From Thermococcus sp. M39 (GTDB lineage: Archaea > Methanobacteriota_B > Thermococci > Thermococcales > Thermococcaceae), in contig NZ_SNUG01000004.1 of assembly GCF_012027325.1 (NCBI RefSeq), forward strand, positions 1-64,000: a stretch of 64,000 bases of DNA. The letters run 5' to 3'. The notes below the pieces were generated by a model that saw nothing but the letters and a program-made list of their open reading frames with translations, did not search any database and was not told where the DNA came from. Positions 18,368-34,658 of this stretch are shown piece after piece (position 1 is the first letter of the stretch; every line of letters begins with the position of its first letter). The translations under genes and the position numbers were made by a program.

Positions 18368-18982
18368 TTATTCCCTAAGCCCAACTGAATTAAGATAACC
18401 AAATGAGAAAAAGAAGAAATTCAGTAAATCAAAATTTAATCCCTTAACTACTCCTTCATCATGTTCTCTATTTCTTTCAATCTCCTTCTCGGCTCTAGCT
18501 CTTGTTTCGACGTCAAAACTACCCGTCAACATGCTTTCACTCGTCAAGTCAAGCATTGTATTGAGAGCTTCATCAAGATTCTCGACCTTACTCATTGCTT
18601 TCTCAAACTCCACCTGTATCTTTGCAACATCCTCCGCTCCAGGCCCTTCGGCGATGCTCTCAACTATGTCCTTGCTGAACTGAATAAAGTCAGCAGAAAC
18701 TTTAACAAGCTCTCTCTGCAACTCAGCTTCCTCCATTAACAGCAAAAGGCGCTTTGCTTGTATTATTCTCTGCTCTAATGCCAAATATTTAACTGCACTC
18801 CTCTTCAATAGGGCTTCATCCCCAAGCTTTGCAGCTTCCTTTCCCTGTAAAAATACCCTACGCTTGAAATTTTCGAGGTTATTTATGTATTGTTTTAAAG
18901 CCATCTTAGCCTTTCGCATTCTAACTTTTCTTTCAATCTCTTTTTCTTCCTTAGATTTCCAAAACTTGACTACAGGAATCAC
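18368..18982 (-). CDS. ESCRT-III/Snf7-like helical protein C, likely frameshifted near its end
   Basis: The protein has a basic first half and an acidic second half, with long helices in the ESCRT-III arrangement: RKAKMALKQYINNLENFKRR, then LEQRIIQAKRLLLLMEEAEL, then AKIQVEFEKAMSKVENLDEA. The last 30 residues as read (…LLNFFFFSFGYLN…) are unlike the rest. Deleting one A near 18471-18480 would give an ending EIEEIENMMKE with a stop at 18448, a plausible MIT-interacting helix. It overlaps the upstream kinase gene by 4 bp and is the last gene of the operon. The fold assignment comes from pattern only. Confidence 0.6.
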   Translation of the reverse strand: MIPVVKFWKSKEEKEIERKVRMRKAKMALKQYINNLENFKRRVFLQGKEAAKLGDEALLKRSAVKYLALEQRIIQAKRLLLLMEEAELQRELVKVSADFIQFSKDIVESIAEGPGAEDVAKIQVEFEKAMSKVENLDEALNTMLDLTSESMLTGSFDVETRARAEKEIERNREHDEGVVKGLNFDLLNFFFFSFGYLNSVGLRE

Positions 18983-21900
18983 CCGCCATTTTCCCTCTTA
19001 ATGCTGTGCACCAGAACCTTGAGCCTTTCTACGAAATCTTCACTAATAGGTAAGTCCTCCTTAATCAGCGCCTCAACCGTGCTTATCGCGTTCGTTAAGT
19101 CCGTGACGTTTTGCACCGTGTAGAACTTCAGGTCGTTGAGCGCGTTGAGGAGCTCCGCCTTTCTGTTGAGCTCAGCATAGGCTAAAGCTAACTTTCCTAA
19201 AGCTTCGACGACCATTCGCCTGTTCTTTAGGACTTCATCAGCAGTCTTACTTTGTTTTAGTGCTTCCATACTCTTTGCTAAGGATTTCTTCAGTTCTTCA
19301 ACCTCTTTTTCAAGCTCTGCTTTTCTCTTCTCTGCTTTGCTGAGCTTTTCCAAGTCCTTGAAAAACTCATCAACCGACTGGTATCTAGCTTCCTTCTTCT
19401 TGGCTAAGAGCTTCTCAAAAATTGCATCGTATTTTGAAAGCTCTGGATCTATTTTTGAGGGTGGAATGAACTTGTAGTTCTCATCTACTATTTTGCCGAA
19501 GACCTCCTCGTAGGTATAGCCCTCGAAGGGCAACCTGCCGGTGAGGAGCTCGTAGAAGGTAACTCCTAACTGCCAGATGTCAGTTCTTGCATCAGTATTA
19601 CCATACTTGCTTGGCATCAGTTGTTCTGGTGCCGCATACAATGGTGAGTAGCCAGCAGAGCTCATTCTCCCAGAAGTTGCCGTTCCAATCTTTGCCAGTC
19701 CCCAGTCGGTAATCTTGGGCGTTAAGTCGGATTTCAGGAGGATGTTCAAAGGTTTCAGGTCGCGGTGGTAGATGCCCTTGCTGTGGGCGTACTTCAGCCC
19801 CTCGACTATACCCTTGATTAATTTTAAGGCCCTTTTCTCATCAACAGGCTTCGGGTACTTGTCAAGGTCTCTGACGACCTTATCCCCTACCTTTGCTCCC
19901 TCGATGTACTCCATCTCAAGGTATGGAACTGGCAGAATGTCTACGTCGTAAAGCTTCACTATGTTTGGATGATTGAGGTGAAGCCATGTTGAGACCTCAC
20001 GGATGAAGGTCTTGCTCGTCCTCTCGTCTATCCTCGGTATCTTGAGTGCAACCACTTTTCCGTCCTTCTTGCGCTTGACCTTGAAGACCTTTGCAAAACC
20101 TCCCTCGCCGAGGAACTTGAGGGGTTCGTAGCGGGAGAGAAGTTCTACAGGAAATCCTGGGATTAGTGAACTTGTAGTGCTTTCCGTTTTCTCCCTCTTT
20201 TCTGGGACTGGTACCGGAGCTGGTTTCTTCGAGGAGGATTGCAATGGAGCTTTCGCCAGTTTTGCTCTCTCTTTTTTGAGTGGGGGTTTGGGTTTTTCTA
20301 CAGCTGATTGTCTCTCCTTTGATTTATCCCTCATCTTCAAGGCAGCGCCAATGATGCCTAGAACTATGAGCCCAGTAAGGAGGTAGGTTTTGGGAATTCC
20401 TCCCCCTGTTGCTGTCTGAGCAGTTTGGGTTAGAGCTGGCGAGTCTCTCCCTCCTGAACTCTCACTTGTGATTGTTGTAGTGGATGAAGTGGAACTGGTT
20501 GTTTGAGATGGGATAGTGGTTTGCGGTTTTATCAGGATTAGACTTGCTGTGATATTTGTCTTCTCACCAGGGTTAATAGTTACAATCTTCGTGAAGTTCT
20601 GATATCCCTCCTCAACGACCTTCAATTCATAAGTTCCAGGAGTGAGGTTAAGTGTTAATGGGGTTATTCCATGATAAGTTCCGTTAATGTAAACTCCCGC
20701 TCCAAGAGGATTAGAGTTAATAATAAGAGTCGCTAGCTGAGCATTGAGTTGGACATTAACTACTGTAGTTTTATTTGGATTGATAGTTACTGTTGTGTTA
20801 TAACTGTGATAACCTGTTTTGGATGCCTTTAAAGAGTGCTGGCCAGTTGGGAGCATATAGTTTTCTAATGGGGTATCACCTACGTAGTTCCCGTCAATGT
20901 ATACTCTGGCTTTTGGAGGATCAGAGTACACAGTTAAATAACCAGAATCCAAGCTCAGATTGGCAGTTGTGTTTTTAGTTTTCTCATAGGATACCTCCTT
21001 TGAGAGGGATACATAATACACTTTGTTAGAAGTTCCGAAGGCAATATGCTTCATTTCGGGGGATATCGCAAGGCTGTGAACAGAGAAGGTGAGATGATAT
21101 GAGTCCACAACATTTCCTTCAATGTCAAATAGATATACTCCACTTCCGCCTCCCGAGACTATCAGACTTCCATTTTCACTAACAGCGACGTCATTGACAG
21201 GATTTCCAGTATCGTAACTCCACTGCAATTGTCCCTTCTTTGTGAATAGATACACAATACCAAGGCCACTCTTTTCAGTTCCTACAGCTATATAATTGCC
21301 ATCATTACTTATTGAAATGCTTGAAACGCCCCCCTGAGTTTTGTAGTCCCATACGAGATTTCCGGTAGTATTGAAAACGTAAATGTGACCGGATGAATAA
21401 TTGGATGTGGAAGTGCCAACAACAACCAAATCATCGTTTATGAACTTGACAACCCTTACATTCTGAGGAATAGGAACTTTCCAGATAAGATGCCCTGTGA
21501 TGTCAAAGAGATAAACTCCCAGTTCATAAAAACCAACCGCTATGTATTTTTCGCTTTTTGAAAATGCTATTCCCTTTTCTGTGACGTATCCTCTTATGTC
21601 TGGATAGTCCCATAGTAACTCGCCTGTGATGTTATAAAGGATTATAACTCCATTGCACTCAGTCGCTATGTACTTGCTTCTTGGAGATATTGTGACTGCA
21701 TGAAAAGCATTTTCTGGAGAGCCTGCAATCTCTGGAGGTATTAATTTGTTCGTAAGTTGGCCATCTCTGTTCAGGATGTAAAGACCCCCTTTGCTCCCAA
21801 CTGCTATATACCTGCCATCTGGGGAGACTGAAATGCCAGATACCCATGATGATATCTGATATCTCCACCTGAGAGTACCGTTTAGGGAAAGTCCATATAT

Positions 21901-22185
21901 CTCGCTTTTTTCAGATGTTGATGTTCCGATGACTATGAAATCCCCCGTAGATGGCATGTCGATATCCTGTATAGGAGTGGCTGTGGTGTACGTGAAGGTA
22001 GGAGACAGTAAATTCTCCCCCAAGACTATTTGAGAACTGATACTTGAGAACAACAAAACTATGAACAGAACTATTGAGAATAGTTCTGAGACAGTTCTCT
22101 TCTTTGTTTGAGGAATTACTCCCCGAACTTCTCTGCCTGCTTTTTCTGTTTTCCAATCTTCCTTGGATTCCCAGAGACGGATCAT
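18979..22185 (-). CDS. Transmembrane Hanks-type Ser/Thr kinase with propeller and two PEGA domains
   Basis: The order is: signal/membrane segment (LFSIVLFIVLLFSSI, about residues 35-50); an outer beta-propeller of WD40/PQQ type (about 60-400, repeats such as GISVSPDGRYIAVGSKGG); two PEGA domains (VYSDPPKARVYIDGNYVGDT and IINSNPLGAGVYINGTYHGI, about 418-555); a Ser/Thr-rich linker; a membrane helix (about 600-618); a basic linker; and a kinase domain from about 686. The kinase has GEGGFAKVFK, the VALKI lysine, HRDLKPLNILL and TDWGLAK, with DWG replacing the usual DFG, plus APEQL. A helical C-terminal module shared with the other two kinases follows. It probably senses envelope state and phosphorylates the ESCRT-like partners; substrates are inferred. 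Confidence 0.85.
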   Translation of the reverse strand: MIRLWESKEDWKTEKAGREVRGVIPQTKKRTVSELFSIVLFIVLLFSSISSQIVLGENLLSPTFTYTTATPIQDIDMPSTGDFIVIGTSTSEKSEIYGLSLNGTLRWRYQISSWVSGISVSPDGRYIAVGSKGGLYILNRDGQLTNKLIPPEIAGSPENAFHAVTISPRSKYIATECNGVIILYNITGELLWDYPDIRGYVTEKGIAFSKSEKYIAVGFYELGVYLFDITGHLIWKVPIPQNVRVVKFINDDLVVVGTSTSNYSSGHIYVFNTTGNLVWDYKTQGGVSSISISNDGNYIAVGTEKSGLGIVYLFTKKGQLQWSYDTGNPVNDVAVSENGSLIVSGGGSGVYLFDIEGNVVDSYHLTFSVHSLAISPEMKHIAFGTSNKVYYVSLSKEVSYEKTKNTTANLSLDSGYLTVYSDPPKARVYIDGNYVGDTPLENYMLPTGQHSLKASKTGYHSYNTTVTINPNKTTVVNVQLNAQLATLIINSNPLGAGVYINGTYHGITPLTLNLTPGTYELKVVEEGYQNFTKIVTINPGEKTNITASLILIKPQTTIPSQTTSSTSSTTTITSESSGGRDSPALTQTAQTATGGGIPKTYLLTGLIVLGIIGAALKMRDKSKERQSAVEKPKPPLKKERAKLAKAPLQSSSKKPAPVPVPEKREKTESTTSSLIPGFPVELLSRYEPLKFLGEGGFAKVFKVKRKKDGKVVALKIPRIDERTSKTFIREVSTWLHLNHPNIVKLYDVDILPVPYLEMEYIEGAKVGDKVVRDLDKYPKPVDEKRALKLIKGIVEGLKYAHSKGIYHRDLKPLNILLKSDLTPKITDWGLAKIGTATSGRMSSAGYSPLYAAPEQLMPSKYGNTDARTDIWQLGVTFYELLTGRLPFEGYTYEEVFGKIVDENYKFIPPSKIDPELSKYDAIFEKLLAKKKEARYQSVDEFFKDLEKLSKAEKRKAELEKEVEELKKSLAKSMEALKQSKTADEVLKNRRMVVEALGKLALAYAELNRKAELLNALNDLKFYTVQNVTDLTNAISTVEALIKEDLPISEDFVERLKVLVHSIKRENGG

Positions 22186-22239: not shown

Positions 22240-23373
22240 CTATCCTTTCCACACCACTACGGTCACATTGTCCTTCGTCACTGGCAGGGCATCTTCAATC
22301 AGCTTTCTAACAATCTCTTCCGCACTCTTTCCTTGCGATACAATCTCTGCAATTCTGCTGTCATCAACGTAGTCGTGCAGTCCGTCAGTGCTCAGCAACA
22401 AAACATCACCCCTCTCAAGCTCCCACTCGTAGAAATCAACGCCGAAGTCAATACCCAAGGCTTTAGTGATAATATTTCTCATTGGGTGCCTTTTAGCTTC
22501 TTCCTCCGTTATCTCCCCCTTATCAAGAAGTTGTTGGACAAAGGAGTGATCTTTAGTTCTTGAAACAATTTTTCCGCCCCTTATGAGGTAAGCCCTGCTG
22601 TCGCCGGTGTTTGCTATAATCGCTTTTCCGTTTCTGATAAATGCCGTAACTAATGTTGTTCCCATTCCCTCTCTCTCACCAATGGCGTTCTTTTTAATCT
22701 TCTTGTGGGCAAGCTCATGGGCCTTTCCTAAGAGCGCCTTAACTTCTTCCTCGCTCATTTCCTTAGTGTCTTCCCGCTCAAAGATCTCCTTGAGTGTATC
22801 AACAGATATTTGTGAAGCAACTTCGCCGGCGTTGTGTCCGCCCAGCCCATCGGCAACCGCTAATAGATATGCATCAGGAAGTTTGAGGATGAGGAGATTG
22901 TCCTCATTGTTCTCCCTGTTGCCGATGTGGGAAATTCCAAAGGCCCTTTCAGCTTTTACCTCGATGAAAGAGTCAGTTTTTCTGACCTCAGTTGAAGATT
23001 CCTTTGACTGACGAGAGCGATAAATATAGACACCAGCTCCAACTCCAGCAAGCAGGAAAAGCCCGAGAATGGGCAAAAGTGACATTTCTGACTCTTCTGA
23101 CTTTGGCAGGCTTAGGACAACTTCTTTTTTCTCTCCAGGAGTTAGCGTTACTGTTGTTGCATTCCACGCTTTTCCATTGGTGACGTTGATAATATAAACT
23201 CCTGGGTTGAGCGTTATGTTGAGAGAAGTTCTGCCTTTAAGTGTGCCGTTTATGTAAATGGGGGCATTAACAGGCTCAGATGTTATTACTAAAGTACCAT
23301 TAATGGGAACAACTCCCCCTGCAACAAGACCGGTTAAAAATAAAAAAATAAACAAGAAAACAGCGTTTTTCAT
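22240..23373 (-). CDS. Membrane PP2C-type Ser/Thr phosphatase with PEGA ectodomain
   Basis: A signal peptide (FLFIFLFLTGLVAGG) is followed by an external PEGA domain (ITSEPVNAPIYINGTLKGRT, to about residue 92), one membrane helix (LLPILGLFLLAGVGAGVYIY) and a cytosolic PP2C/PPM phosphatase from about 140. The metal-binding motifs are VADGLGGHNAGEVAS, ANTGDSRAYLI, STDGLHDYVDD and KDNVTVVVW. PP2C enzymes reverse Hanks-kinase phosphorylation. The PEGA ectodomain is of the same type as in the kinase downstream, suggesting the two read the same external cue. The start overlaps the second kinase gene by 4 bp. Confidence 0.9.
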   Translation of the reverse strand: MKNAVFLFIFLFLTGLVAGGVVPINGTLVITSEPVNAPIYINGTLKGRTSLNITLNPGVYIINVTNGKAWNATTVTLTPGEKKEVVLSLPKSEESEMSLLPILGLFLLAGVGAGVYIYRSRQSKESSTEVRKTDSFIEVKAERAFGISHIGNRENNEDNLLILKLPDAYLLAVADGLGGHNAGEVASQISVDTLKEIFEREDTKEMSEEEVKALLGKAHELAHKKIKKNAIGEREGMGTTLVTAFIRNGKAIIANTGDSRAYLIRGGKIVSRTKDHSFVQQLLDKGEITEEEAKRHPMRNIITKALGIDFGVDFYEWELERGDVLLLSTDGLHDYVDDSRIAEIVSQGKSAEEIVRKLIEDALPVTKDNVTVVVWKG

Positions 23374-25184
23374 GCATTGTCCTCCTTTACTTCCATTTTT
23401 ATGTGGGAAATTAACTCATTGAGTCTCTGTGCAAATTCATTGCCAATTGGAATGTCCTCGTTGATGTAGTATTTCAAGTATTCTCTAGCAGCTTCAACGT
23501 CCTTCTTGAGTTCTTCGCTCTTTACATAATACTTCAGGCTTCCAAGAAGCTCCAATAACTCTGATTGTGAATTAAGCTCACAGTAGAGCATAGCAAGCTT
23601 TTGGTAAAGATCAAGGATCTCAAGCGTTTTGAGTTTTGCCTCTTCAGCGCTTCTGCTCTTCTTAAGCTCCAGCTTGCTTCTGTTGAGGTCTTTCTTTAAC
23701 TCTGCTACTGTCTTTTTGAGCTCCTTTCTCTTTCTAACAACCTTTTCGAGCTCTTCTAAGGCTTTCAGAAGCTCATCAGCACTTTGGAAGCGGTCTTCTT
23801 TTCTCTTTGCCAATGCCTTTTCAAAGAACTGATCAAAGATGTAAAGTTCTGGATTGAATTCGCTTGGCTTCTTTGGTAAATAGTTCGGATCGGTTATTTT
23901 TCCTATCAACTCTGCTTGGGAGTGACCTTCATATGGGGGTTGCCCAGTGAGAAGCTCGTAAAGAACCGCCCCAACTTGATAGAGATCGGTTCTATGATCT
24001 GTATGTCCGTAGTGGCTTGGCAGTAACTGCTCAGGAGCAGCATAGAGAGGAGTGTACCCTGTAGCAGTCTTCGAAGATGTTGTGACGCCTATCTTTGATA
24101 ATCCCCAATCTGTAAGCTTCGGAGTAAAATTATGCTTAAGCAAGATGTTTAGGGGTTTAATGTCCCTGTGCAGAACATTTTGGGAGTGGGCGTATTTGAC
24201 AGCTTGAGTAACTCCTTTGACAAACCTAAGTGCAAGCTCTTCATCAACAGGCTTGGGATATTCTTCCAAAGAACGGATTGTTTTTCCATTCAGGTTAATC
24301 CCTTCAACATACTCCATTTCTAAGTGCGGGATTGGGAGAATATCAGCTTCATAGAGTTTCACGATGTTTGGATGATCCAGATGAAGCCACGTGCCAACTT
24401 CTCTGAGGAAGACCTTACTGGTCTTTTCATCAATGCGCGGGATTTTTACGGCTACAATCTTGCCATCACTCTTGCGCTTGGCCTTGAAAACTTTAGCAAA
24501 ACCACCTTCACCGATAAACTCTAAAGGCTCATATTTTTTGAGAAGTTCCGAGGGAAAGAGTTCTTTTGCTCTTGAGATGGACTTTTTTGTATGTGGCGTT
24601 TGTTTTTTGGTTCGGTTTTTGTTTCTAAGATATAGCCCTATTCCTGCTCCAATTCCAACCATGAGTATTACTACCACAAAAAAGCTATCTGAACTTGAGG
24701 ATGCGCTAGAATATCCACTACTAGAATATCCACTGTATGTTGTTGGCTTTTTGACAGTGAAGCTAACATATTTTGTTATGGAACTTCTTTTATCACTTAC
24801 GACCCCGGGATCTGTGTACTCTACCTTAACTTGGATTGATTTAGACCCCTCTTCTTCGTTGTTTGGAACAAAAATTTTGAACTTAAATGTTCTCTGCTCA
24901 CCCTCTGGAATTTTAGATACTGATGCAGAAGGTGGTGAGACAACAATATTGCTGTACCCTTCAACTGTGGGTGTTACTACAACATCATTGGCATCATCAT
25001 CTCCCACTTCTTTAACAGTAACTGTTAATGTGGCTGCTTCCCCAGGTTCCAGTACTGTAGGGAAGATATTCACATTGACTTCAATTTTTGTAGTTCCACC
25101 AATAGCAGCATTCAATGGAGTTGTACATATTAAAAAACCAAAAATAATTAAAAGAACAATAGACTTTACATGTCTCCTCTTCAT
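23370..25184 (-). CDS. Transmembrane Hanks-type Ser/Thr kinase with CARDB-like ectodomain
   Basis: A signal peptide (SIVLLIIFGFLICTTPLNAA) precedes an external beta-sandwich (VNVNIFPTVLEPGEAATLTV through about residue 150) resembling CARDB/NEW-type domains. A Ser/Tyr-rich linker and one membrane helix (FFVVVILMVGIGAGIGLYL, about 170-188) follow. The kinase spans about 220-480 with GEGGFAKVFK, AVKIPR, HRDIKPLNILL, TDWGLSK (DWG instead of DFG) and YAAPEQLLP. The C-terminal helical part (LYQKLAMLYCELNSQSELLE) matches the other two kinases. It lies 3 bp after the Vps4-like gene and overlaps the phosphatase gene, so all three are cotranslated. Confidence 0.88.
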   Translation of the reverse strand: MKRRHVKSIVLLIIFGFLICTTPLNAAIGGTTKIEVNVNIFPTVLEPGEAATLTVTVKEVGDDDANDVVVTPTVEGYSNIVVSPPSASVSKIPEGEQRTFKFKIFVPNNEEEGSKSIQVKVEYTDPGVVSDKRSSITKYVSFTVKKPTTYSGYSSSGYSSASSSSDSFFVVVILMVGIGAGIGLYLRNKNRTKKQTPHTKKSISRAKELFPSELLKKYEPLEFIGEGGFAKVFKAKRKSDGKIVAVKIPRIDEKTSKVFLREVGTWLHLDHPNIVKLYEADILPIPHLEMEYVEGINLNGKTIRSLEEYPKPVDEELALRFVKGVTQAVKYAHSQNVLHRDIKPLNILLKHNFTPKLTDWGLSKIGVTTSSKTATGYTPLYAAPEQLLPSHYGHTDHRTDLYQVGAVLYELLTGQPPYEGHSQAELIGKITDPNYLPKKPSEFNPELYIFDQFFEKALAKRKEDRFQSADELLKALEELEKVVRKRKELKKTVAELKKDLNRSKLELKKSRSAEEAKLKTLEILDLYQKLAMLYCELNSQSELLELLGSLKYYVKSEELKKDVEAAREYLKYYINEDIPIGNEFAQRLNELISHIKMEVKEDNA

Positions 25185-25187
25185 TTT

Positions 25188-26372
25188 TCACCCTCCAAAC
25201 TCCTCCGCCCACTTTTCATACCTTTCAATTTCCTTCCTAGTCAGTGGAGACTTAATCTTCTTAAACGCCTCCTCAAAGTCCCTCATCTCAAGCGGTCTCG
25301 TCCTTAAAGCACGCTTTCTGAGTTCTTCAAATGGAAGCGAAGCGAGCTTGTACAAATCTTTGTTCTCCTCCCGTATCATGTTCCAAATCGCTTGCTGGCA
25401 GAGGTTTCTGATGTCTCTACCAGAATAAAACCTCCTAACGCTTTCCTCGGCTATCGCGTCTAAATCAAGTTTTGAGATATCCAATCCACGCGTGTTAATT
25501 TTGATTATTTCCTTTGTAGCCTTTTTATCAGGTAGCGGAACATAAATCCTCCGTGGAAAACGCGAGAGAACTGCCTCATCCAAGTCCCATGGAGTATTTG
25601 TTGCCGCTAACGTTAAAACAAGCAAGTCGCTCTTCTTATCTTGAAAGCCATCGAGTTCAGTCAGAAGGGTAGAAAGCATCCTCCTTGAAGCTTCGCTTGT
25701 TTCATTGGAACGCTTGGTGGTTAGGGCATCTATTTCATCAATGAAAACTATTGACGGCGCCCTCTCCCTTGCCACTTCATAGAGGGCCGTTATGATTTTG
25801 CTCGACTCTCCGAAGTACTTGCTGAGGACATTTGATGCCTTGACGTTAAAGAACGTGGCGTGCAAACTTCCAGCAGCAGCTGAAGCGAGTAAAGTTTTAC
25901 CTGTTCCAGGAGGTCCGAAGAGGAGTATGCCCTTCCACGGTTGGATTGACTCGGGCTTTTGAAGAGCAGCAATGACGACGGTCTCCATGAGCAGGACTTT
26001 TACATCGTTAAGACCTCCAATGTCGTTCCACGTCACGCTTGACTTGGCTATGAGGCCCTTCACGTATTCCCTGAACTGGTCTTGCTCTTTCTCTTCTTCG
26101 GCTTTCGTTTTTCTGCCCTCAGCACTTACGACGGCTTTTTTGCCGAATTCACCTTTTTCAATCTTCTTGGCAGTTTGTTCCCATTTCTTCGCTTTTTTCA
26201 GGTAGAAGTCGCTGTTGTAGGATACATGTTTTGCGAGCTCTTTCAAAAGGGTGGCACACTTTAAGGCCTTCTTCCTTGCGGTTTCCATATCTCCTTTAGC
26301 AACAGCTTTATCAAACTCCCTCTTCGTTTTCTCAAACTCGTTCAATAAAGGACCAGATAAATCAACGGGCAT
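25188..26372 (-). CDS. Vps4/CdvC-like AAA ATPase with N-terminal MIT-like domain
   Basis: Residues 1-80 form a three-helix MIT-like domain (NEFEKTKREFDKAVAKGDME, TARKKALKCATLLKEL). A linker and one AAA module follow: SVTWNDIGGL, Walker A LFGPPGTGKTLLASAAA near 156, pore loop KASNVLSKYFGESSK, Walker B SIVFIDEIDAL near 210, sensor LAATNTPWDLDEAVLSRF. The protein ends EIERYEKWAEEFGG, very like the C-terminal helix of Vps4/katanin-class AAA proteins. Vps4 hexamers pull apart ESCRT-III filaments through MIT contacts. ATG 26372 is chosen because GGAGGT lies just upstream; the earlier TTG overlaps that site. Its neighbours encode ESCRT-III-like proteins and kinases, which supports a membrane-remodelling role. 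Confidence 0.85.
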   Translation of the reverse strand: MPVDLSGPLLNEFEKTKREFDKAVAKGDMETARKKALKCATLLKELAKHVSYNSDFYLKKAKKWEQTAKKIEKGEFGKKAVVSAEGRKTKAEEEKEQDQFREYVKGLIAKSSVTWNDIGGLNDVKVLLMETVVIAALQKPESIQPWKGILLFGPPGTGKTLLASAAAGSLHATFFNVKASNVLSKYFGESSKIITALYEVARERAPSIVFIDEIDALTTKRSNETSEASRRMLSTLLTELDGFQDKKSDLLVLTLAATNTPWDLDEAVLSRFPRRIYVPLPDKKATKEIIKINTRGLDISKLDLDAIAEESVRRFYSGRDIRNLCQQAIWNMIREENKDLYKLASLPFEELRKRALRTRPLEMRDFEEAFKKIKSPLTRKEIERYEKWAEEFGG

Positions 26373-26374
26373 TT

Positions 26375-29300
26375 TCAAACCTCCTTCTCAATCTTGTGGA
26401 GTAAAACTCTGAGATGATCAATAAATTCATCACTAACTGGAATCCCCTCCTTCATCATGAGCTCTATTTGGGATATGACGTTCAACAACCTATCACGGTT
26501 CTCCCTCGTGTAGAACTTCAAGTCTTCGAGAGCATTCAGAAGTTCAGCCTTGTCATTAAGTTTAGCACTCAGGAGAGCTACCTTTGCAGTTTTTTCGACA
26601 GCTTCTCTCGTAAGCCTCTGAATTTCATCCCTTGAGGGGCTTCTCTTGAGTGTTTGCTTAGTTTTTTTGAGACTCTTCTTTAGTTCTTCACGCTCCCTGT
26701 GGAGCGCTTCTAAAGATTCCAAGGCCCTCAGGAACTCTTCGACACTCTGGAATCTATCTTTCTTGCGCTTCGCCAAAAGCCTCTCGACTATTCCGTCATA
26801 CTTGGCTAAGGAGGGATTGATCTTGGAAGGAGGCATGGGCTTAATGTCTTTAGCCAGAATCTTGCCTGCTAATGCTCCGGGCGAGTAGCTCTCGTAAGGC
26901 AGTCTTCCAGTTAAGAGTTCGTAGAATATGACGCCGAGCCCGTAAATGTCAGTCCTGTGGTCTGGATTTCCATAGGTTTTTTCGTCTAGCTGCTCTGGGG
27001 CTGCATATTGTGGTGTGAGACCTTTGATTGTTGAAGATGTTCTGACGCTTATCCTTGCAAGCCCCCAGTCAGTAATTTTTGGCGTTAAGTCACTCTTAAG
27101 GAGAACATTTAGAGGCTTTAGGTCGAGATGCCAAATCCCCTTTGAATGAGCATGCTTTAATCCTTCAGCAATGCCTTTAATGATTTTTAGGGCTGTTTTC
27201 TCATCAACTGGTTTTGGATACTTGTCAAGATCCCTAACAAGCTTTCCATCCACATTTACACCCTCAACATATTCCATTTCTAAGTAGGGAATTGGTAGAA
27301 TATCTGCTCTGTAAAGTGTTACAATATTTGGATGGTTTAGGTGGTACCACGCAGCGACTTCCTTTAAAAAGAGTGAGCTTGTCTTTTCATCTATTCTGGG
27401 GATTTTGAGGGCAACTATCTGACCATCGCTTTTTCTCTTGGCTTTGAATACTTTGGCAAAACCCCCTTCTCCAATGAATTCTAACGGAGCATAATTATCT
27501 AAGAGTTCAGGTGGGAAGCCTTTGTCTTGAAGAACCACATCATCTTCAGATGGTTTATGTTTTTCCAAAGTACTCTCTTTTATCCCTCCTTTACGCTTCC
27601 ACTCTCTCAATATTTCTAATGCCGTATCATAGTCCTCTTTCGTACGTAGCACTAGAAAGATTTCTCTGATATTTTTAGCTTCCTTTGAAAACTCTTCAAC
27701 ACTTTCAAGAAATGTCTCTACAACACGTTTAAACGGACAACCTGAAGGTCCAGCTCTTATTGCTGGGAAGGCTATCCTCGTAGCTCCCAATTCGTCTGCT
27801 TTCCTCAAAGCAGCTATTATTGATAATTTTAGAGTTTCCTTCAGTTTTTTATTCCATCTTGCTTTGCAGTCAGGACCAAATGTGTTAATGACATATTTGA
27901 CGCCATTTCGTTCTAACTTAAAAGGTGGTGTCACAACTACTTCTCCGTGTCTGATCCAGTCCCTTCCAATTTGATTCTTCATGATATCTCTGCTTATTTT
28001 TCTGTATTTGTTGACATCTCCAACAGCTGCTTTGGCAACATACCTAGAAACGCCTCCTCTGTAACTTAAATATTTATCCACAGAGTTTACTATCGCTTCA
28101 GCAGAAAAGTGTATTATGTTTCCTTGGACAATACTAAAGGTTAACTTACCGAATTTTATTGAAGCCCCACTCTTTTTCCTCTTCATTACAAAAAGTGGGA
28201 TTAACAGAGCTAAAACTATTATTAAGTACAGATACTCATTTTTCACCCAAAACACTTGTTTCTGTACAGTTATGCTGTTAGCCAGCTCAGAACCATCAAC
28301 ATTATTGTTTGTAGTGGTCTTTTGATTTACTCTTTCAACAGATCCAATAATCGTAGTCGCTTGTTCAGCGAGTTTCTTGGCGTTCTCATAATCTCCAGCG
28401 CTAAATAACTCCCTGGCTCTTTCTAAAAGGTTTTCGGCCTCTGTTGTGTTGAATCCCTCTTCCTTTTTCTGGCTGATTATAGCTTCGGCACTCAGGATAG
28501 CATTATTGGCTTCTTGTATTATCTCTATCTTCTGCCTTATTTCCTCCAAGAGTGTAATGGCACTAGGATATTCCTCATTTTTTATTTTTTCTTGTGCATC
28601 CGCCAAACTGCTTTCAAACTCACTAACATTCGCTATGCCTTCAACATTTTTCAATTCAAGTTTGACCTCATTAAGAAGAGTTTGAGCTCTTTCAGCTTCT
28701 GAACTCTTTATGTTTTGCAGTTCTCCATTTGCTTGGTTTATGAGTTCAATTGCCCTATCATAGTTGCCTGCATTGAGTTCTTTCTCCGCCTGTACGATCA
28801 GCGTTTTTACTGTAGTAACGTCAAATCCTTTTGATTCTAGAGTAGCGTATGTCTCCTTAACTCTATTGAGCAATTCTTTGGCGTAGTCGTGCCGAGCTTT
28901 TGAAATAATGTCTTCTGCCTTGCTGATCTCGCTTTTTGCTTTGTCAAGCTCTCCTATCCTGAGAAGATGTTCTGCGTTAAATAGAGCATTATCAACTTCT
29001 TCTGACAAATGGATACTATCGTTTCTAAGCTTGCTGAGGAGTTTCCTAAGAGAAGTCAGCTTGGAATATGTTGCAATCACTTCATCTGAAGCAAAAGCGT
29101 AAAGATAACCATCATCAGCTCCAACATAAAGAATCCCATTGGCAATTACTGGAGATGAGCGGACGCTTGAGTTAATCAGGTACTTCCATTTTAATTTTCC
29201 GCTATCAGCATGGACAGCATAGAGATAGCCGTCATCACAACCGAAATAAACCGTGCCTCCAGATATTGTGGGGGCATTCTGAATGGGTCCTCCAACCTCA

Positions 29301-30292
29301 AATTGCCATTTTGTTTGGCCGTTTTGAGTGTCAAATGATGCAAGGTAGTGTTTGTGATACAGCTTTGAATAATCTGTTGCAAAGAGATAGAGCTTCCATC
29401 GTTCATAATAATAGTAAGAGTAAATAGTACCACCAACTACAGAAACATCTGTTGCAGATGAGGATATTGCCTCGAATTTATTAAGACTATCTGAAGCACT
29501 TACATAGTCTTTCCTTCCAAGCTCTCGCTTCCACTTGACTTTTCCACTCATTACATCAAGCGCATAGAGGTATTTTGCACCTGCAATAACATAAACCGTT
29601 CCGCTGTCAACGACTACAGACCCGCTTGTTATTGGACCTCCAGCATCAAAAGTCCATATGAGAGCTCCGCTCTTAACCCCTAATGCATAAACCTTCCCAT
29701 CGTAAGAACCAGCTATTAAGAGTTGCCCATAGACGGCAGGCGAGGCTTCAACTTTTCCTTCAGTTTTGAATACCCACTTCTTCTCTCCGGTAGTTGCGTT
29801 TAGGGCATAAATAAATCCCCCAGTAGAGCCGAAAACTACCAAACCATACTCCACAACTGGAGAGGATACTATTGACCCCAAAGCTTCAAATTTCCACTTT
29901 AGTTTCCCTGTTTTAGCATCCAATACGTAGAGGTTTCCGTCTAAAGAACCAACGTAAACAGTGTTCTTCCAGACTGCTGGAGAAGCGTCTATTCTGCCAT
30001 TTGTTTTAAACTTCCATTTGACCTCCCCAGTTAGGGAATCAATCGCATAGAAGTAGTAGTCGCTGGAACCGAAGTAAAGAATCCCTTCGTAAACCGCTGG
30101 AGATGATACTATTGGTCCCCCAGTTTTAAACTTCCAAAATAATTCAAGAGGGGGTTCTAAAGCATCGGTGGCAACTCCTGTATGTTGAGGATTGTTCTTG
30201 TAGACCCTCCACTCGGTAGCCAAAGCGAGATTTGTAACTAGAGAGATAACTATTAGTGCTGTAATGAAGGTGCTGAATGTAGCTTTTTTCAT
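26375..30292 (-). CDS. Transmembrane kinase with PQQ propeller, helical repeats and macro domain
   Basis: This 1305-residue chimera reads: signal peptide (1-25); PQQ/WD-like beta-propeller (about 30-405, repeats such as VYVGSLDGNLYVLDAKTGKL); helical repeats of the form LLERARELFSAGDYENAKKL (about 415-650); a membrane helix (YLYLIIVLALLIPLFVMKRK, about 685-703); a macro domain (FSIVQGNIIHFSAEAIVNSV, AFPAIRAGPSGCPF, about 711-897); and a Hanks kinase from about 932 (GEGGFAKVFK, ALKIPRIDE). Its catalytic loop reads HLDLKPLNVLL, with Leu replacing the usual Arg, and DFG is DWG. Macro domains bind ADP-ribose, so the kinase may be tied to NAD-derived signals. The shared C-terminal helical module follows. 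Translation is coupled to the Vps4-like gene. Confidence 0.87.
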   Translation of the reverse strand: MKKATFSTFITALIVISLVTNLALATEWRVYKNNPQHTGVATDALEPPLELFWKFKTGGPIVSSPAVYEGILYFGSSDYYFYAIDSLTGEVKWKFKTNGRIDASPAVWKNTVYVGSLDGNLYVLDAKTGKLKWKFEALGSIVSSPVVEYGLVVFGSTGGFIYALNATTGEKKWVFKTEGKVEASPAVYGQLLIAGSYDGKVYALGVKSGALIWTFDAGGPITSGSVVVDSGTVYVIAGAKYLYALDVMSGKVKWKRELGRKDYVSASDSLNKFEAISSSATDVSVVGGTIYSYYYYERWKLYLFATDYSKLYHKHYLASFDTQNGQTKWQFEVGGPIQNAPTISGGTVYFGCDDGYLYAVHADSGKLKWKYLINSSVRSSPVIANGILYVGADDGYLYAFASDEVIATYSKLTSLRKLLSKLRNDSIHLSEEVDNALFNAEHLLRIGELDKAKSEISKAEDIISKARHDYAKELLNRVKETYATLESKGFDVTTVKTLIVQAEKELNAGNYDRAIELINQANGELQNIKSSEAERAQTLLNEVKLELKNVEGIANVSEFESSLADAQEKIKNEEYPSAITLLEEIRQKIEIIQEANNAILSAEAIISQKKEEGFNTTEAENLLERARELFSAGDYENAKKLAEQATTIIGSVERVNQKTTTNNNVDGSELANSITVQKQVFWVKNEYLYLIIVLALLIPLFVMKRKKSGASIKFGKLTFSIVQGNIIHFSAEAIVNSVDKYLSYRGGVSRYVAKAAVGDVNKYRKISRDIMKNQIGRDWIRHGEVVVTPPFKLERNGVKYVINTFGPDCKARWNKKLKETLKLSIIAALRKADELGATRIAFPAIRAGPSGCPFKRVVETFLESVEEFSKEAKNIREIFLVLRTKEDYDTALEILREWKRKGGIKESTLEKHKPSEDDVVLQDKGFPPELLDNYAPLEFIGEGGFAKVFKAKRKSDGQIVALKIPRIDEKTSSLFLKEVAAWYHLNHPNIVTLYRADILPIPYLEMEYVEGVNVDGKLVRDLDKYPKPVDEKTALKIIKGIAEGLKHAHSKGIWHLDLKPLNVLLKSDLTPKITDWGLARISVRTSSTIKGLTPQYAAPEQLDEKTYGNPDHRTDIYGLGVIFYELLTGRLPYESYSPGALAGKILAKDIKPMPPSKINPSLAKYDGIVERLLAKRKKDRFQSVEEFLRALESLEALHREREELKKSLKKTKQTLKRSPSRDEIQRLTREAVEKTAKVALLSAKLNDKAELLNALEDLKFYTRENRDRLLNVISQIELMMKEGIPVSDEFIDHLRVLLHKIEKEV

Positions 30293-30359: not shown

Positions 30360-30974
30360 TCAGAGCTCTTCAAGTTCAAGGTGTTTCTTATCCTTTCTAT
30401 CTTCTCCAGTCACCTTCTCTGCCGCAATTTCCGGCTCAAGCTCACCCTCTTTTACAGCCCTGATAGTACTCAGGATTTCTTCAAGCTCTTCATCTGCCTC
30501 AAAATTAACCCCAGTAGCAAGAGCTTGATCAGTGTAGCCAAGCATGCGGTTCAAATTCTCATTCAAGTTCTGAGCATCGAGTTGTATTTCAACAAGTTTT
30601 TGCTCCAGCTCTTCAGGAGACATATTATGGAGGATCTTCCATGTTGGAGTACCTTTCAAAATAGCCTCATTTTCCTTAATTATCATAAGATTGCTAACAA
30701 GCATCATCTGCTTGTTTAGCTGTGCATGTGTATTCTGCAAATTCCTCTTTCTCTGATTAAGGGTCTTTATCTTTGTCGCTATCGTCAGCTCCTCACTCTT
30801 GCTCCTAGCTCTCTTAGCTTGTTCAAAAAGAAGTGCAATCTGCCTGTCTATCTCCACCATCTCATTCTCTATTCTTCTAATCTGCATGTCAAGCTTTACT
30901 TGAGTCTCCCTTAATTGATTTAGTGAAATGTCAAGCGGGTTCTTTTTGCCAAAAAATCTAGAGAAGAAGGTCAT
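30360..30974 (-). CDS. ESCRT-III/Snf7-like protein A
   Basis: The 204-residue protein begins MTFFSRFFGKKNPLDISLNQ, a hydrophobic/basic N terminus like that of ESCRT-III proteins. A long helical hairpin follows (LDMQIRRIENEMVEIDRQIA ... IKTLNQRKRNLQNTHAQLNK), then MLVSNLMIIKENEAILKG and NMSPEELEQKLVEIQLDAQN, the spacing seen in CHMP/CdvB proteins. The C terminus is acidic (EELEEILSTIRAVKEGEL) and could bind a MIT domain. The gene starts directly after the stop of its paralogue, and 67 bp separate it from the macro-kinase gene. ESCRT-III is inferred from architecture; a PspA/Vipp1-type relative is the main alternative. Confidence 0.65.
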   Translation of the reverse strand: MTFFSRFFGKKNPLDISLNQLRETQVKLDMQIRRIENEMVEIDRQIALLFEQAKRARSKSEELTIATKIKTLNQRKRNLQNTHAQLNKQMMLVSNLMIIKENEAILKGTPTWKILHNMSPEELEQKLVEIQLDAQNLNENLNRMLGYTDQALATGVNFEADEELEEILSTIRAVKEGELEPEIAAEKVTGEDRKDKKHLELEEL

Positions 30975-31568
30975 TTAAAACTCCTCCATCTCTTTTGATA
31001 GCTCTTTTTCCTTGATCTTTTCAAGGACTTCCTCAGTATCTGCCTCTCCGGCTTCAACCTTTGCCCAAGCCTCCATAAGTTCTCTTTCCGTCTGATCTTC
31101 AGTGGCTTCAAACTCTGCAATCTCCATCTCAAAGACGCGGTTGAGGCTGCTGACCATCTCATCGAACTCCTTCCCATCAAGGTTCACCTTAATGAGGAAC
31201 CTTTCTAGCAGTTCTGGTTCAACCTTGATGAGCTTGTCCCATATGCCGACTTTCCTAAGCTCTTTCTCATACCTCTTAACAATAATGAGGTTCTTCACGA
31301 GGGTGTACTGCCTTTGGGCTGTCATAAAATCCCTCAACTTAAGCTTCTGCTCCATATCGAGACTCTTAATCTCTTGAGCCAACATCTTCTTCTTTAGTAC
31401 ATCAGCACCAACCCCTTCTTGGAAGAGCTGCTTCTTCTTCCTTTCAATGTTGTTTATCTCCTTTTTTGTCCTTTCCAAGCGGTTCCTAAGCCTTATCTCC
31501 TCCTCCTGTAGCTCTCTTAAAGAGAGTTTCTCAATCGGGTTTTTTCTAAATCTATCTAGTATCTTCAT
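30975..31568 (-). CDS. ESCRT-III/Snf7-like protein B
   Basis: This 197-residue paralogue of the next gene has the same layout. It has a basic start (MKILDRFRKNPIEKLSLREL), a long hairpin (LRNRLERTKKEINNIERKKK and QEIKSLDMEQKLKLRDFMTA), the YTLVKNLIIVKRYEKELRKV segment and an acidic C-terminal tail (WAKVEAGEADTEEVLEKIKE). The Leu/charged pattern of the tail could serve as a MIT-interacting motif. It overlaps the 611-residue protein gene by 4 bp and abuts the following paralogue with TAA immediately followed by ATG. The pair probably co-assembles. Confidence 0.65.
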   Translation of the reverse strand: MKILDRFRKNPIEKLSLRELQEEEIRLRNRLERTKKEINNIERKKKQLFQEGVGADVLKKKMLAQEIKSLDMEQKLKLRDFMTAQRQYTLVKNLIIVKRYEKELRKVGIWDKLIKVEPELLERFLIKVNLDGKEFDEMVSSLNRVFEMEIAEFEATEDQTERELMEAWAKVEAGEADTEEVLEKIKEKELSKEMEEF

Positions 31569-33400
31569 CTTCTAACCCCCTTCATCAATACCAATCCAAA
31601 ACCATCAATGTACTTAACAAACCCATTCTCCTCCTTAGCAACCTCATAAAATGCCTTCTTAACATAAGCTTCATTCCCACAATCCTTCACTTCACTAAAT
31701 GGCAGGTAGTCCCTTCCGATCAGCTTTGACTTTATGCACTCCTTCACTTTTGCATAGACTTCCTCATCGAGTTCCATGCGTACCAATGGAACGAGGGCCT
31801 TCGCATATCTGTCATTTGGATTGTAAATGACCTCTCCAGTCTCAACATCAAGTAACAGTAAAGAAACGTTCTCAGAATAGAAGTTCTGGTGGAACTGATC
31901 GGAGTTAACATACTTCTTTATCCGCTCTTCAAAGCCTAATGGGGAAGCTATGAGAAGAATCGTGCGCTCATTCTTTGATGAATCCCTTGCATCGACCAAG
32001 TAAGCGTTTACATCAGCAAGCTCCAGCGGGTCAGTATCAAACCCATACTCCGCAAGCTTTTCGACCCTTGTTATATAGTGTCCTTTTAAGAGGAGTTTTT
32101 CTTTGCCTCCTAAGAGCTTCTTCTCTTTTAGCTTAACTTCAAGATATCTGTTTTCTGGCAGGTTCTTCAGAGTTTTTTCGTCGAGTGTAGAGGCGAATTT
32201 GGAAGTATCCTCCCCCAATTTTTCGCTTATTTCTTCCACTTTGTATGTTTTACCCAAGAGCTTAACTTTGTCCTTGAGCTTGCTCTTCAATCTTCCCAAA
32301 AAGTTCAGCTCTTGTATCCTCGCCTCTTCCCTAATCACGAGGCGGGATCCTTTTTCAAGGTTCTCTGAAGCCTTGAGGATCTCATTTATCTTTCTACGCA
32401 GCTCCTGATCTTTTTCCATTAGCTCCATTTCTTTTCTCTTAAGTTCCATTTCTTTCTGTTTTAATTGGACACTCCTCCTCTGTATTTCCTCTTCAAGTCT
32501 TTTTACTTCCTTCATCATGCTTTCTCTGGCTCTTTCAAGCTCAGCTTGGAGCTTTTCTTGAAGTTCTTTGTCCTTCAATTCAATCAGTTGTTTAGTAAGC
32601 TTTTCTTTTTCCTTCTCAAATCTTTCAATAAGCTCCTGCTTTTCCCTTTCCAGCCGTTCTATTTCTTCCATGCTTGCGCGTGAAATTTCTTGCACTATCC
32701 TTTCTTTTTCATATTCAAAAGCCTCTGTGATTTCTTTGATATGCTGTCTAAGCTCTTGGACTTTTCTTTCATAAACTGACTTTACCGCCTCTACACTTTC
32801 TTTCTTCTCTTTCTCCCAATCCTCAAGCAACGTTCTGAACCAGTCGTACTTGTTGGCCTCGCTGATCGCTTCGTTGAGTTTTTCCTTGTATTTACCCCAA
32901 GTCTTTTTGAAATAGTACCGCAAGGGCAGTTTTATGTCTGGATTGTTGAGTTGCTCCTCAATCCATTTGTCCACTCCAATATAGTAAGTTTTCAAGAGTT
33001 CTAAAACCTCAGAATCTCTCCTGTAAAGTTTTGTTAGGATGTCATCCTTTGTCATTATCTCGAAGATGTTGTACTTCAGTATCTCATCAACAACTTGGAG
33101 TTCTTCCTTAGTGAATCTCCTCCTAGCTGGGTAAAAATTTTCACCGTTGCTCTCAAAGCTCCATGCGAGTATTGCAAGGGCAGCTTCAAATTTAGCTCTG
33201 AAATTAGTGTCTAAATCCTTCAAGAAGTATCCACATGAGCCATCTAAGTATTTGTCATATGCACTTTTCACGTCATGCCAGAGTCGTTCTCTTCGTGAGA
33301 ATTCTTCAACTAAGATGTCTCTGCCTTGTTTTAGAACTCTTTCGGCTGGCCGTAATAAGTTTTTAACACATTCAATATTTCCATCATCAAAAATTGACAT
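31565..33400 (-). CDS. Coiled-coil protein of the ESCRT/kinase operon, unknown function
   Basis: The 611-residue protein has a helical N-terminal domain (about 1-190), a very charged coiled coil (about 195-365, e.g. ELMEKDQELRRKINEILKAS) and a C-terminal alpha/beta domain (about 370-611) with strands such as NAYLVDARD and SLLLLDVETGEVIYNP. No catalytic motif is visible. It is coupled by a 4-bp overlap to the ESCRT-III-like pair and may be a scaffold or membrane-site adaptor. I do not recognise a named family. Confidence 0.6.
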   Translation of the reverse strand: MSIFDDGNIECVKNLLRPAERVLKQGRDILVEEFSRRERLWHDVKSAYDKYLDGSCGYFLKDLDTNFRAKFEAALAILAWSFESNGENFYPARRRFTKEELQVVDEILKYNIFEIMTKDDILTKLYRRDSEVLELLKTYYIGVDKWIEEQLNNPDIKLPLRYYFKKTWGKYKEKLNEAISEANKYDWFRTLLEDWEKEKKESVEAVKSVYERKVQELRQHIKEITEAFEYEKERIVQEISRASMEEIERLEREKQELIERFEKEKEKLTKQLIELKDKELQEKLQAELERARESMMKEVKRLEEEIQRRSVQLKQKEMELKRKEMELMEKDQELRRKINEILKASENLEKGSRLVIREEARIQELNFLGRLKSKLKDKVKLLGKTYKVEEISEKLGEDTSKFASTLDEKTLKNLPENRYLEVKLKEKKLLGGKEKLLLKGHYITRVEKLAEYGFDTDPLELADVNAYLVDARDSSKNERTILLIASPLGFEERIKKYVNSDQFHQNFYSENVSLLLLDVETGEVIYNPNDRYAKALVPLVRMELDEEVYAKVKECIKSKLIGRDYLPFSEVKDCGNEAYVKKAFYEVAKEENGFVKYIDGFGLVLMKGVRR

Positions 33401-33403
33401 TCT

Positions 33404-33928
33404 TCATCCCTCCAAAAGAGGATCCAAATCTTCTTTCAGCTTTTTAGTCATGTGCTCTACGGCCTCTCCATAGCCTGAAAGGGATAATTTTACCCAAGTT
33501 TTGCCATTCTTTGACTCCATAGTGACCTCAATGTCCACGCGGCCCTTTCTCGTGAGTACGAAGTACTTTGTGGACTTTAAGTCTGAAGAATAGTAACGAA
33601 TGTTGTTTTTAGAAAAAACATAATCTAAAAGCTTTTTAACGATCTCTGGCGGGTCATTGCTCTGATATTCAAGAACCGTTGTAGTAGATCGAATCTGAGA
33701 TCTCAGATCTTTCTCATGCAATACAAAACTCTCCACGTTTTTAGATGAACTGGGATTGAGCTTTGAGAAGAGTTCTTCTGCAAATTCGGAGATTTCATTG
33801 GTCTCAATGATAAAAGTCAAGCCCCTTGGTTTTGAAATTCTTGCGCGCTCTTGCCACTTTTCCAGAAGGTAATCAATTCGTTTTCTTTCTGCATCATCTT
33901 CATAGTTAACAATAAAAAGGTATTTCAT
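33404..33928 (-). CDS. Unknown alpha/beta protein of the ESCRT/kinase operon
   Basis: The 174-residue product starts MKYLFIVNYEDDAERKRIDY and has alternating strands and helices. Its C-terminal beta hairpins (KYFVLTRKGRVDIEVTMESK, KTWVKLSLSGYG) suggest a small antiparallel sheet. It lies 3-4 bp from both neighbours in the same operon. No domain or catalytic residue pattern was recognised. Confidence 0.5.
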   Translation of the reverse strand: MKYLFIVNYEDDAERKRIDYLLEKWQERARISKPRGLTFIIETNEISEFAEELFSKLNPSSSKNVESFVLHEKDLRSQIRSTTTVLEYQSNDPPEIVKKLLDYVFSKNNIRYYSSDLKSTKYFVLTRKGRVDIEVTMESKNGKTWVKLSLSGYGEAVEHMTKKLKEDLDPLLEG

Positions 33929-33932
33929 TTTA

Positions 33933-34658
33933 TTATCCCTCTTTTAGTCTTCTTTCAGCGTCTTCTATGAGCCCAACAACCCTTTCGCAGTACTCTATGA
34001 TGAATTCTAGATCCTTGTCGCTGGGAGAGTATCCTTCATGGACGACTTTGTTTCTTATATTGTAGAAGATTTTTGGAAGTTCCATTTCAAGCTTAGGAAT
34101 GTGAATGTTGTGATGATTTAGGTATCTAACAAAGCCAAAATACTTGTCAGCGAATGTGTAGTCATAATTCCCATGCTTTCGGACTCCTAACTCATCTAAA
34201 TTTACATTAAACTCTTCTAAGAACCTGTTTAATGCAACTTCCATGGCTCCAAGATAAACCATTGCAACGGCCCAGTTTTCAGAGAATTGTGGGTGCTTTG
34301 CTATGAATTCATTTAGTCGTGATAGAAATCCCTTTGGTTTTATTTTTACTAATAAGGCGTCGAGTTTATCAGCTAGATACTGGGCTTGTCGCTTTATGTA
34401 TTCTTGACCGTAAAGGTGTTCTTTTTGGAGGAAGGTTCTTAGGTTTGAGATGTCTGTTTGTAGTGATAAGTGCTGAGACTTGAAGTTTAAGTCGTTGGTT
34501 TTTAATGCGCTTATTTTTGAGAGAGTGGATTCAATTATGTTCAAGCTGTTGAGAAAAGCTTCTTTTTCCAGTTTGTTTTCGTTACTCACCAGTTCTCGGA
34601 GTTTTCTAGACTCTTTTTCTATTACCCCGCAAAACCGGGAAAGTTCAATATCATCCAT
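33933..34658 (-). CDS. HEPN-like helical protein, first gene of the ESCRT/kinase operon
   Basis: The 241-residue protein is nearly all helical. Its C-terminal part contains YNIRNKVVHEGYSPSDKDLE, the R-N-(x3)-H arrangement typical of HEPN domains and of related DUF4145-like helical bundles. The start ATG follows AGGTGG. As the first gene after the apparent promoter near 34700, it may be an RNase-type effector or simply a helical adaptor. The motif is visible, whereas activity is uncertain. Confidence 0.5.
   Translation of the reverse strand: MDDIELSRFCGVIEKESRKLRELVSNENKLEKEAFLNSLNIIESTLSKISALKTNDLNFKSQHLSLQTDISNLRTFLQKEHLYGQEYIKRQAQYLADKLDALLVKIKPKGFLSRLNEFIAKHPQFSENWAVAMVYLGAMEVALNRFLEEFNVNLDELGVRKHGNYDYTFADKYFGFVRYLNHHNIHIPKLEMELPKIFYNIRNKVVHEGYSPSDKDLEFIIEYCERVVGLIEDAERRLKEG

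Follow-up and report, generated by a model that had tools for sequence, protein, structure and literature searches.

Genes of the kinase-ESCRT operon

The window analysed here is a 64,000-nucleotide stretch of Thermococcus sp. M39 (contig NZ_SNUG01000004.1, positions 1 to 64,000). At 18368-34658 its minus strand carries eleven open reading frames (ORFs) that encode three membrane-bound Ser/Thr kinases (STKs), a membrane PP2C phosphatase, a Vps4-type ATPase, three ESCRT-III-like proteins, a coiled-coil protein, a small protein and a HEPN-type protein. An ORF check of the window returned all eleven at the coordinates reported by an earlier, sequence-only reading, which had proposed a "kinase/phosphatase-controlled ESCRT-like operon" of mostly overlapping or abutting genes; as a description this is correct. 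Each of the 10 junctions is a 4-bp overlap or a gap of at most 67 bp, and the same gene order was found in more than 30 further loci, so that the operon arrangement is not due to chance.

The Vps4/CdvC-type ATPase (396 aa; 25188..26378, on the minus strand as are all features of the operon given below) consists of MIT, AAA and Vps4_C domains, and was the only full-length match in the genome. The AAA and Vps4_C domains were recognized by Pfam. The N-terminal domain is divergent, and matched the MIT profile of Sulfolobales CdvC with an E value of 1.3e-9 over 67 columns when compared by hhalign, against values of 0.06-0.58 for four control profiles. The MIT-AAA ATPase proposed earlier is thereby confirmed. 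In a Vps4 tree built from our own sequence set, and not from the alignment of PMC10936438, the window protein fell into a Thermococcaceae group (97/93) within a Main-type set (100/99) made up of Thermococcaceae, Methanococci and Halobacteriota loci, apart from CdvC and CDC48.

A Main clade of euryarchaeal ESCRT systems, in which Thermococcales are explicitly included, comprises Vps4, ESCRT-III, arCOG09748 and arCOG08177, often with a membrane-bound STK and a Ser/Thr phosphatase (STP) (Makarova et al., 2024; PMC10936438). The window operon has Vps4 with an MIT domain and ESCRT neighbours, an ESCRT-III protein in the locus (S1), and membrane STKs together with an STP. Since these parts have been published for the Main clade, and Vps4 takes the corresponding place in the tree, we conclude that the operon is a Main-clade archaeal ESCRT system, known in kind. 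The occurrence of an ESCRT-type set in Thermococcales, which the sequence-only reading held to be notable, is not so in itself, because ESCRT with STK and STP was already on record there.

The ESCRT-III-like protein S1 (Snf7-type; 18368..18982) belongs to a family of which 11 of 12 members matched Pfam Snf7 (best E value 4.5e-6), the first member reaching 25.6 bits against a curated cut-off of 27.3. By this family membership we regard S1 as an ESCRT-III protein. A Snf7 search over the whole window genome gave no match at threshold, hence Pfam alone would overlook the ESCRT-III family here, and a PDB profile search with the S1 alignment also gave no match. S7 (204 aa; 30360..30974) and S8 (197 aa; 30975..31568) are homologous to each other (4e-25). 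Comparisons by hhalign confined to Thermococcaceae were too shallow, and were repeated with wider families; the joint S7 and S8 profile then matched S1 with an E value of 1.9e-4 and CdvB with 4e-4, against 0.014-0.65 in nine control comparisons. In the AlphaFold models both proteins form a long helical hairpin of ∼37 plus 43 residues followed by short helices, with a mean confidence (pLDDT) of 77.8 for S7. When Foldseek was run with the S7 model, CdvB2, CdvB, Asgard ESCRT-IIIB and CHMP3 were enriched; with the S8 model, CdvB2 was among the weak matches and Vipp1 was weak too, and neither search gave an E value below 0.001. Thus, of the three ESCRT-III-like proteins proposed earlier, S1 is upheld by its Snf7 family match, and S7 and S8 very probably belong to ESCRT-III through weak links; the structural check suggested for the helical proteins, run on S7 and S8, returned helical hairpins and enriched ESCRT-III entries, and no significant fold match. 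PspA, named in that check, finds no support: S1, S7 and S8 had no match to the PspA family in Pfam or NCBIfam, and Vipp1 appeared weakly for S8 alone. In a separate locus (L047 of G020, 8957-10882) a lone 641-aa ORF fuses an S7-like ESCRT-III part to a part resembling the coiled-coil protein, and the kinases of the system are not nearby.

The C terminus of S1 has been changed by an out-of-frame deletion. The window protein diverges from all homologues after FDVET, and ∼41 nt are missing when compared with the locus L024. The tail pattern of the homologues, ELEPxKRLKEIENMMKE followed by a stop, is readable in the window DNA only in another frame, where translation of 18448..18501 gives ELEPRRRLKEIENMMKE and a stop. 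By eye the lost tail resembles a MIT-interacting motif of the MIM1 type. Either S1 has departed here from its usual mode of engaging Vps4, or the assembly is in error at that point.

Receptor kinase 1 (1305 aa; 26375..30292) has a PQQ/BamB-type propeller, a helical region, a transmembrane (TM) segment, a macro domain, a Ser/Thr kinase domain (HLD...TDWG) and a C-terminal helical domain. Receptor kinase 2 (604 aa; 23370..25184) has a CARDB-type ectodomain, and receptor kinase 3 (1068 aa; 18979..22185) a beta-propeller with two PEGA domains, each followed by a TM segment, the kinase and the C-terminal helical domain. The three Hanks-type kinase domains were matched by Pfam with E values of 1e-44 to 1e-48, and the HxD and TDWG motifs are retained. 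The membrane phosphatase (377 aa; 22240..23373) joins a PEGA ectodomain and a TM segment to a PP2C domain with intact metal-binding motifs, and scored 227.6 bits with the Stp1-type NCBIfam model, whose cut-off is 230. PP2C, PEGA, PQQ/beta-propeller and CARDB domains were all matched by Pfam, and the TM segments were read directly from the sequence, e.g., YLYLIIVLALLIPLFVM in the 1305-aa kinase. The three membrane kinases, the membrane phosphatase and the sensor ectodomains (propellers, PEGA, CARDB-like) of the sequence-only reading are borne out by these matches.

Residues 716-896 of receptor kinase 1 (27605..28147) form the macro domain (NCBIfam PRK00431.1-3, above cut-off), whose closest solved structure is AF1521, an ADP-ribosylglutamate hydrolase (4e-49). 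The macro-kinase fusion was found only in the window genome, in G084 (locus L060) and in L058. In all three fusions Asp20 of AF1521 is replaced by Asn and Asn34 by Asp; we take both to be ADP-ribose-contact residues. The contact residues of AF1521-type hydrolysing macro domains are therefore not kept in spite of the family match, which makes hydrolysis doubtful, and the domain may bind another ligand. A free-standing macro protein (∼50-59% identity) is present in almost all relatives, and this genome's own copy is 58% identical. Because the free-standing form is near-universal and the fusion is confined to three loci, the macro-kinase looks like a captured housekeeping domain. In L058 (9284-10727), and with the same genes in L060, a two-gene insert lies between the macro-kinase and Vps4; its second gene resembles a nucleotidyltransferase by eye and had no family match.

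Upstream of S8 in the operon lie the coiled-coil protein (611 aa; 31565..33400), a conserved family, and the small protein (174 aa; 33404..33928), encoded beside it in nearly all loci. By size, gene order and phyletic distribution they are candidates for arCOG09748 and arCOG08177, respectively. The former is described as a helical N terminus, a coiled coil, a globular part and a C-terminal winged helix (wH), and the latter as a Cas2-like domain with a DUF3568/TBP-fold (PMC10936438). The first gene of the operon encodes the HEPN-type protein (241 aa; 33933..34658), with a weak Pfam match to RiboL-PSP-HEPN and an RX4H motif, RNKVVH, near its C terminus. This motif is invariant in the three distinct homologues seen, including those from two further lineages, which confirms the HEPN-like assignment; RNase function is predicted.

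A putative archaeal promoter, CGAAAA...TTTTAAAG (BRE/TATA-like), is located at 34696..34711, ∼45 nt before the start codon of the first gene, and the motif and its flanks are similar at the same position before the HEPN gene in L023 and L061, two related loci. The 67 bp that separate S7 from the macro-kinase (30293-30359) contain an inverted repeat, AATCTGATT/AATCAGATT. It was dropped as an element, because its stem is partly mismatched in L058-L060.

Ectodomain swapping and distribution of the module

Two architectures were observed. Thirteen compact loci (L024-L034, L051, L052) contain the candidate arCOG08177 gene, the coiled-coil gene, S8, S7, one kinase, Vps4, PP2C and S1. Most other Thermococcaceae loci, including the window, contain several kinases of variable length, with up to five detected. 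Cross-locus pairs whose kinase domains are 80% identical or more were compared by ectodomain identity: it is below 40% in 20 of the 36 pairs from multi-kinase loci (median 36%), in contrast to none of the 56 pairs from one-kinase loci (median 81%). The pairs are not independent, and these counts describe a contrast and carry no P value. A kinase of L058 and its counterpart in L060 are 97-100% identical from PEGA onwards up to the C terminus, and 21-44% identical over the N-terminal 400 residues. An outer half swapped on a constant inner half is the pattern that exchangeable receptors would show. Kinases with one fixed ectodomain type were rejected for the multi-kinase class by this analysis. 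In about a dozen loci (L035, L036, L039, L041-L043, L046, L049, L056, L057 and others) a ∼374-aa protein that combines pentapeptide repeats with an Ion_trans_2 channel domain is encoded beside Vps4 or the core.

The neighbours of the compact loci raise the question of metal stress. Downstream of all 13 there is a 704-750-aa ORF of P-type-ATPase length; those inspected are of the heavy-metal type with a CPH motif. A Met/His-rich DUF302 gene is located upstream at the loci inspected for it. These genes would fit a module that protects or remodels the membrane under metal (copper) toxicity. Such neighbours, however, were not found at the window or at the multi-kinase loci, and we consider this explanation improbable.

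The coiled-coil (candidate arCOG09748) gene, used as a marker, was present in 40 of 94 Thermococcaceae genomes, in 13 of 36 Methanococci, and, with partial or weak matches counted, in 34 of 394 sampled genomes of the phylum to which Archaeoglobi and Halobacteria belong. A synteny survey, which had been proposed in the sequence-only reading, was run: the order candidate arCOG08177-candidate arCOG09748-S8-S7-[kinases]-Vps4-[kinases/PP2C]-S1 recurs and is conserved across Thermococcaceae. The ESCRT core with kinase and PP2C is also found in Methanococci, and less completely in Archaeoglobi and Halobacteriota. Among the six genus-mates the module is missing in four, two of which are incomplete assemblies. 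Outside these groups, the Sulfolobales genome of Metallosphaera javensis (L168/L071, 744000-763900), which has CdvB/CdvC-type genes as well, carries a second, divergent ESCRT locus with Vps4, an S7-like gene, candidate arCOG08177 and arCOG09748 genes and a kinase of 1387 aa; such a second locus was present in 1 of 31 family members, with a fragment in another.

FtsZ was present in 13 of 13 Thermococcaceae tested, whether or not they carry the ESCRT operon, and the window genome has three tubulin-superfamily genes. These results bear on a Cdv-like, ESCRT-based cell division parallel to FtsZ. A Vps4 with an MIT domain and ESCRT-III subunits, like CdvC and CdvB, would be in keeping with it. The module, however, is accessory (40 of 94) and absent in over half of the family, this genome and all others tested have FtsZ, and the Vps4 clade is separate from CdvC. 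CdvA was not recognized among the 11 operon genes in general Pfam and NCBIfam scans, and was not searched for elsewhere in the genome. This is not the pattern of a conserved division machinery of the lineage, and division, one of the roles considered in the sequence-only reading, is disfavoured to the point of being very improbable.

The window coiled-coil protein is 85-89% identical to that of three genomes of another genus, and 64-65% identical to that of the two positive genus-mates. FtsZ ranks in the opposite order, with 89-91% identity to the other genus versus 95% to the genus-mates. This reversal indicates that the ESCRT locus moved horizontally between genera. The adaptor of L058, which bears an Archaeoglobus sp. 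metagenome-assembled genome label, is 89% identical to that of the window; this may reflect horizontal transfer or a misbinned Thermococcales contig.

Defence neighbourhood and proposed function of the module

The window operon lies in a defence island (3310-18279 and 34921-39515). On one side are Pbe-type genes (PbeA/PbeC-like, 3310-7758), Hma-type genes (DUF499/HmaC and DUF1156/HmaB-like, 9394-15658) and EVE-domain genes (17295-18279), and on the other an AbiEi-like gene (34921-35694) and a MazF-type pair (ribbon-helix-helix plus MazF/PemK-like, 35844-36534). As a general rule the defence-island context was rejected, because elsewhere the module is flanked by housekeeping-type genes, as at several other Thermococcaceae loci, or by a metal ATPase. 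In the subgroup of the window, immune-type parts are found repeatedly: the macro-kinase, HEPN, PF01637 ATPases (inside L058 and L060, and also inside Methanococci loci) and a TIR protein in a sister locus (L170 of G077, 6535-7245). The latter (TIR_2, 3.9e-16) is encoded between two receptor kinases, and the Glu of its WEDRI motif aligned with the catalytic-Glu segment of SARM1. TIR above cut-off was found neither in the operon nor in the window genome; a macro domain that receives a TIR product in this genome was set aside on that account, and is kept as a lead only.

These features could point to antiviral immunity, in which receptors and NAD/ADP-ribose-linked modules detect infection, ESCRT-III blocks budding, mends lesions or sacrifices the cell, and HEPN cuts RNA. 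The location between Pbe-, Hma-, EVE-, AbiEi- and MazF-type genes, the TIR gene of L170, the macro-kinases of the window, L058 and L060, the invariant RX4H motif, the PF01637 ATPases inside several loci and horizontal transfer are all in line with it. Against this, other Thermococcaceae loci retain housekeeping-type neighbours, immune genes were not seen in one-kinase loci, the window genome lacks TIR above cut-off, the text of a 2026 archaeal immune survey has ESCRT in its reference list only, and defence islands gather passengers too. We regard antiviral immunity as unlikely. Somewhat more doubtful still is the bolder proposal of an innate-immune or envelope-surveillance system, in which a swappable receptor-kinase bank, NAD/ADP-ribose modules (macro-kinase, TIR) and a HEPN arm would command an ESCRT-III/Vps4 effector against viruses or membrane attack.

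We favour, with moderate confidence, a signal-gated remodelling of the membrane by ESCRT that serves in envelope stress or defence, and not division. An envelope-stress or defence purpose is preferred because an accessory, transferable, receptor-swapping module stands beside an intact FtsZ system; the common, putative promoter footprint before the first gene was also counted in its favour. Of the signal-gated remodelling suggested by the sequence-only reading, the general idea is the best-supported one, and the division option is the part that is disfavoured. In this scheme, the TM kinases would detect a cue related to the envelope or to an invader by means of ectodomains (propellers, PEGA, CARDB) that can be exchanged; one kinase also has a macro domain on the inner side. 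They would then phosphorylate a component of the core, in all likelihood the coiled-coil adaptor (candidate arCOG09748) or the ESCRT-III subunits. Phosphorylation would nucleate ESCRT-III filaments on the inner membrane face together with the coiled-coil/wH adaptor. Vps4, recruited via its MIT domain, would remodel and disassemble the filaments, and the membrane PP2C would reset the switch. The output would be local membrane remodelling, in which membrane that is damaged or under attack is sealed or shed. We infer the ligands, the direction in which the signal runs, that the ESCRT core is what the kinases act on, and the role of the output in the cell.

The main rival is constitutive protein sorting and extracellular-vesicle biogenesis, in which the kinases would tag or choose cargo and the adaptor would bring in ESCRT-III for the budding of vesicles, with no role in defence. 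Vesicle formation and sorting, with phosphorylation central, is what has been proposed for ESCRT in FtsZ-dividing archaea (PMC10936438), and the fixed receptor and metal-ATPase neighbour of the one-kinase form are compatible with housekeeping export. The same article, however, notes vesicle-producing archaea without ESCRT, and presence in 40 of 94 genomes with rapid ectodomain swapping is easier to reconcile with a threat or ligand that varies than with constitutive sorting. We hold sorting and vesicle production to be a real possibility, albeit the less likely one.

Several points weigh against signal-gated remodelling. S7 and S8 are tied to ESCRT-III by weak profile links and non-significant fold matches; a single transcript of the eleven genes is a prediction from their spacing; the swap counts come from non-independent pairs; and the loss of the conserved S1 tail suggests that the window copy may be partly decayed. 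No experiments on euryarchaeal ESCRT systems were found in the literature searched. Ectodomain swapping on a conserved kinase-ESCRT core leads to a testable idea, in which a receptor system has ESCRT as its output arm. If this is true, the regulated ESCRT membrane repair or defence known from eukaryotes would gain an archaeal counterpart in cultivable Thermococcales, and the macro-kinase fusion, if functional, would link nucleotide (ADP-ribose-type) sensing directly to ESCRT.

Other features were noted around these loci. In L170, paired 131- and 152-aa ORFs on opposite strands occur twice, perhaps as an insertion element. In the window, the island side 34921-39515 includes a UvrD/GajB-like helicase; a 985-aa protein (39512-42469), with no Pfam match, overlaps the UvrD-type helicase gene by 4 bp and is possibly a helicase-nuclease partner. 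A C/D-box small RNA, sR55 (48159-48225), is the sole Rfam match in the window.

Relation to known systems

GAP1-N2-type GTPase conflict systems (PMC7159879) share with the window operon kinase-PP2C pairs, variable modules and mobile gene neighbourhoods. The window, however, has no GTPase or vWA core, and PMC7159879 mentions neither ESCRT nor Vps4. Bacterial PASTA kinase/Stp1 pairs likewise combine a TM Hanks kinase with a Stp1-like PP2C in one operon; in contrast, the window has no PASTA domains, several swapped ectodomains and a coupling to ESCRT. Macro-domain Thoeris (PMC11204291) has a macro domain in a membrane protein and a TIR gene, here present in the sister locus. In the window the macro domain is fused to a kinase, with the AF1521 ligand residues changed and an ESCRT core as partner, and no TIR (ThsB) gene lies beside the macro-domain protein in the operon.

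CdvABC of Thermoproteota has an MIT-AAA Vps4/CdvC and ESCRT-III-type partners in common with the window system, whereas the latter coexists with FtsZ, belongs to another Vps4 clade and has receptor kinases.

The closest relative is the Main clade (PMC10936438), with which the window shares Vps4, ESCRT-III, candidate arCOG09748, candidate arCOG08177, membrane STKs, an STP and an occurrence in Thermococcales. It differs in having three STKs, one of them with a macro domain, HEPN as the first gene, and three ESCRT-III genes, of which one has a broken tail; its relatives also show swapping of ectodomains. The available main text of that article describes none of these differences, although HEPN appears in a figure key. 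Neither that text nor targeted literature searches yielded the macro-domain kinase, swapping of ectodomains, a link to TIR, the compact form linked to a metal ATPase, or transfer between genera. The sequence-only reading did not record the defence island, the macro domain inside the 1305-aa kinase or the broken 3′ end of the 18368-18982 gene. New here, when compared with the Main clade as published and with that reading, are (i) ectodomain swapping; (ii) the macro-kinase; (iii) TIR in a sister locus; and (iv) horizontal transfer of the locus.

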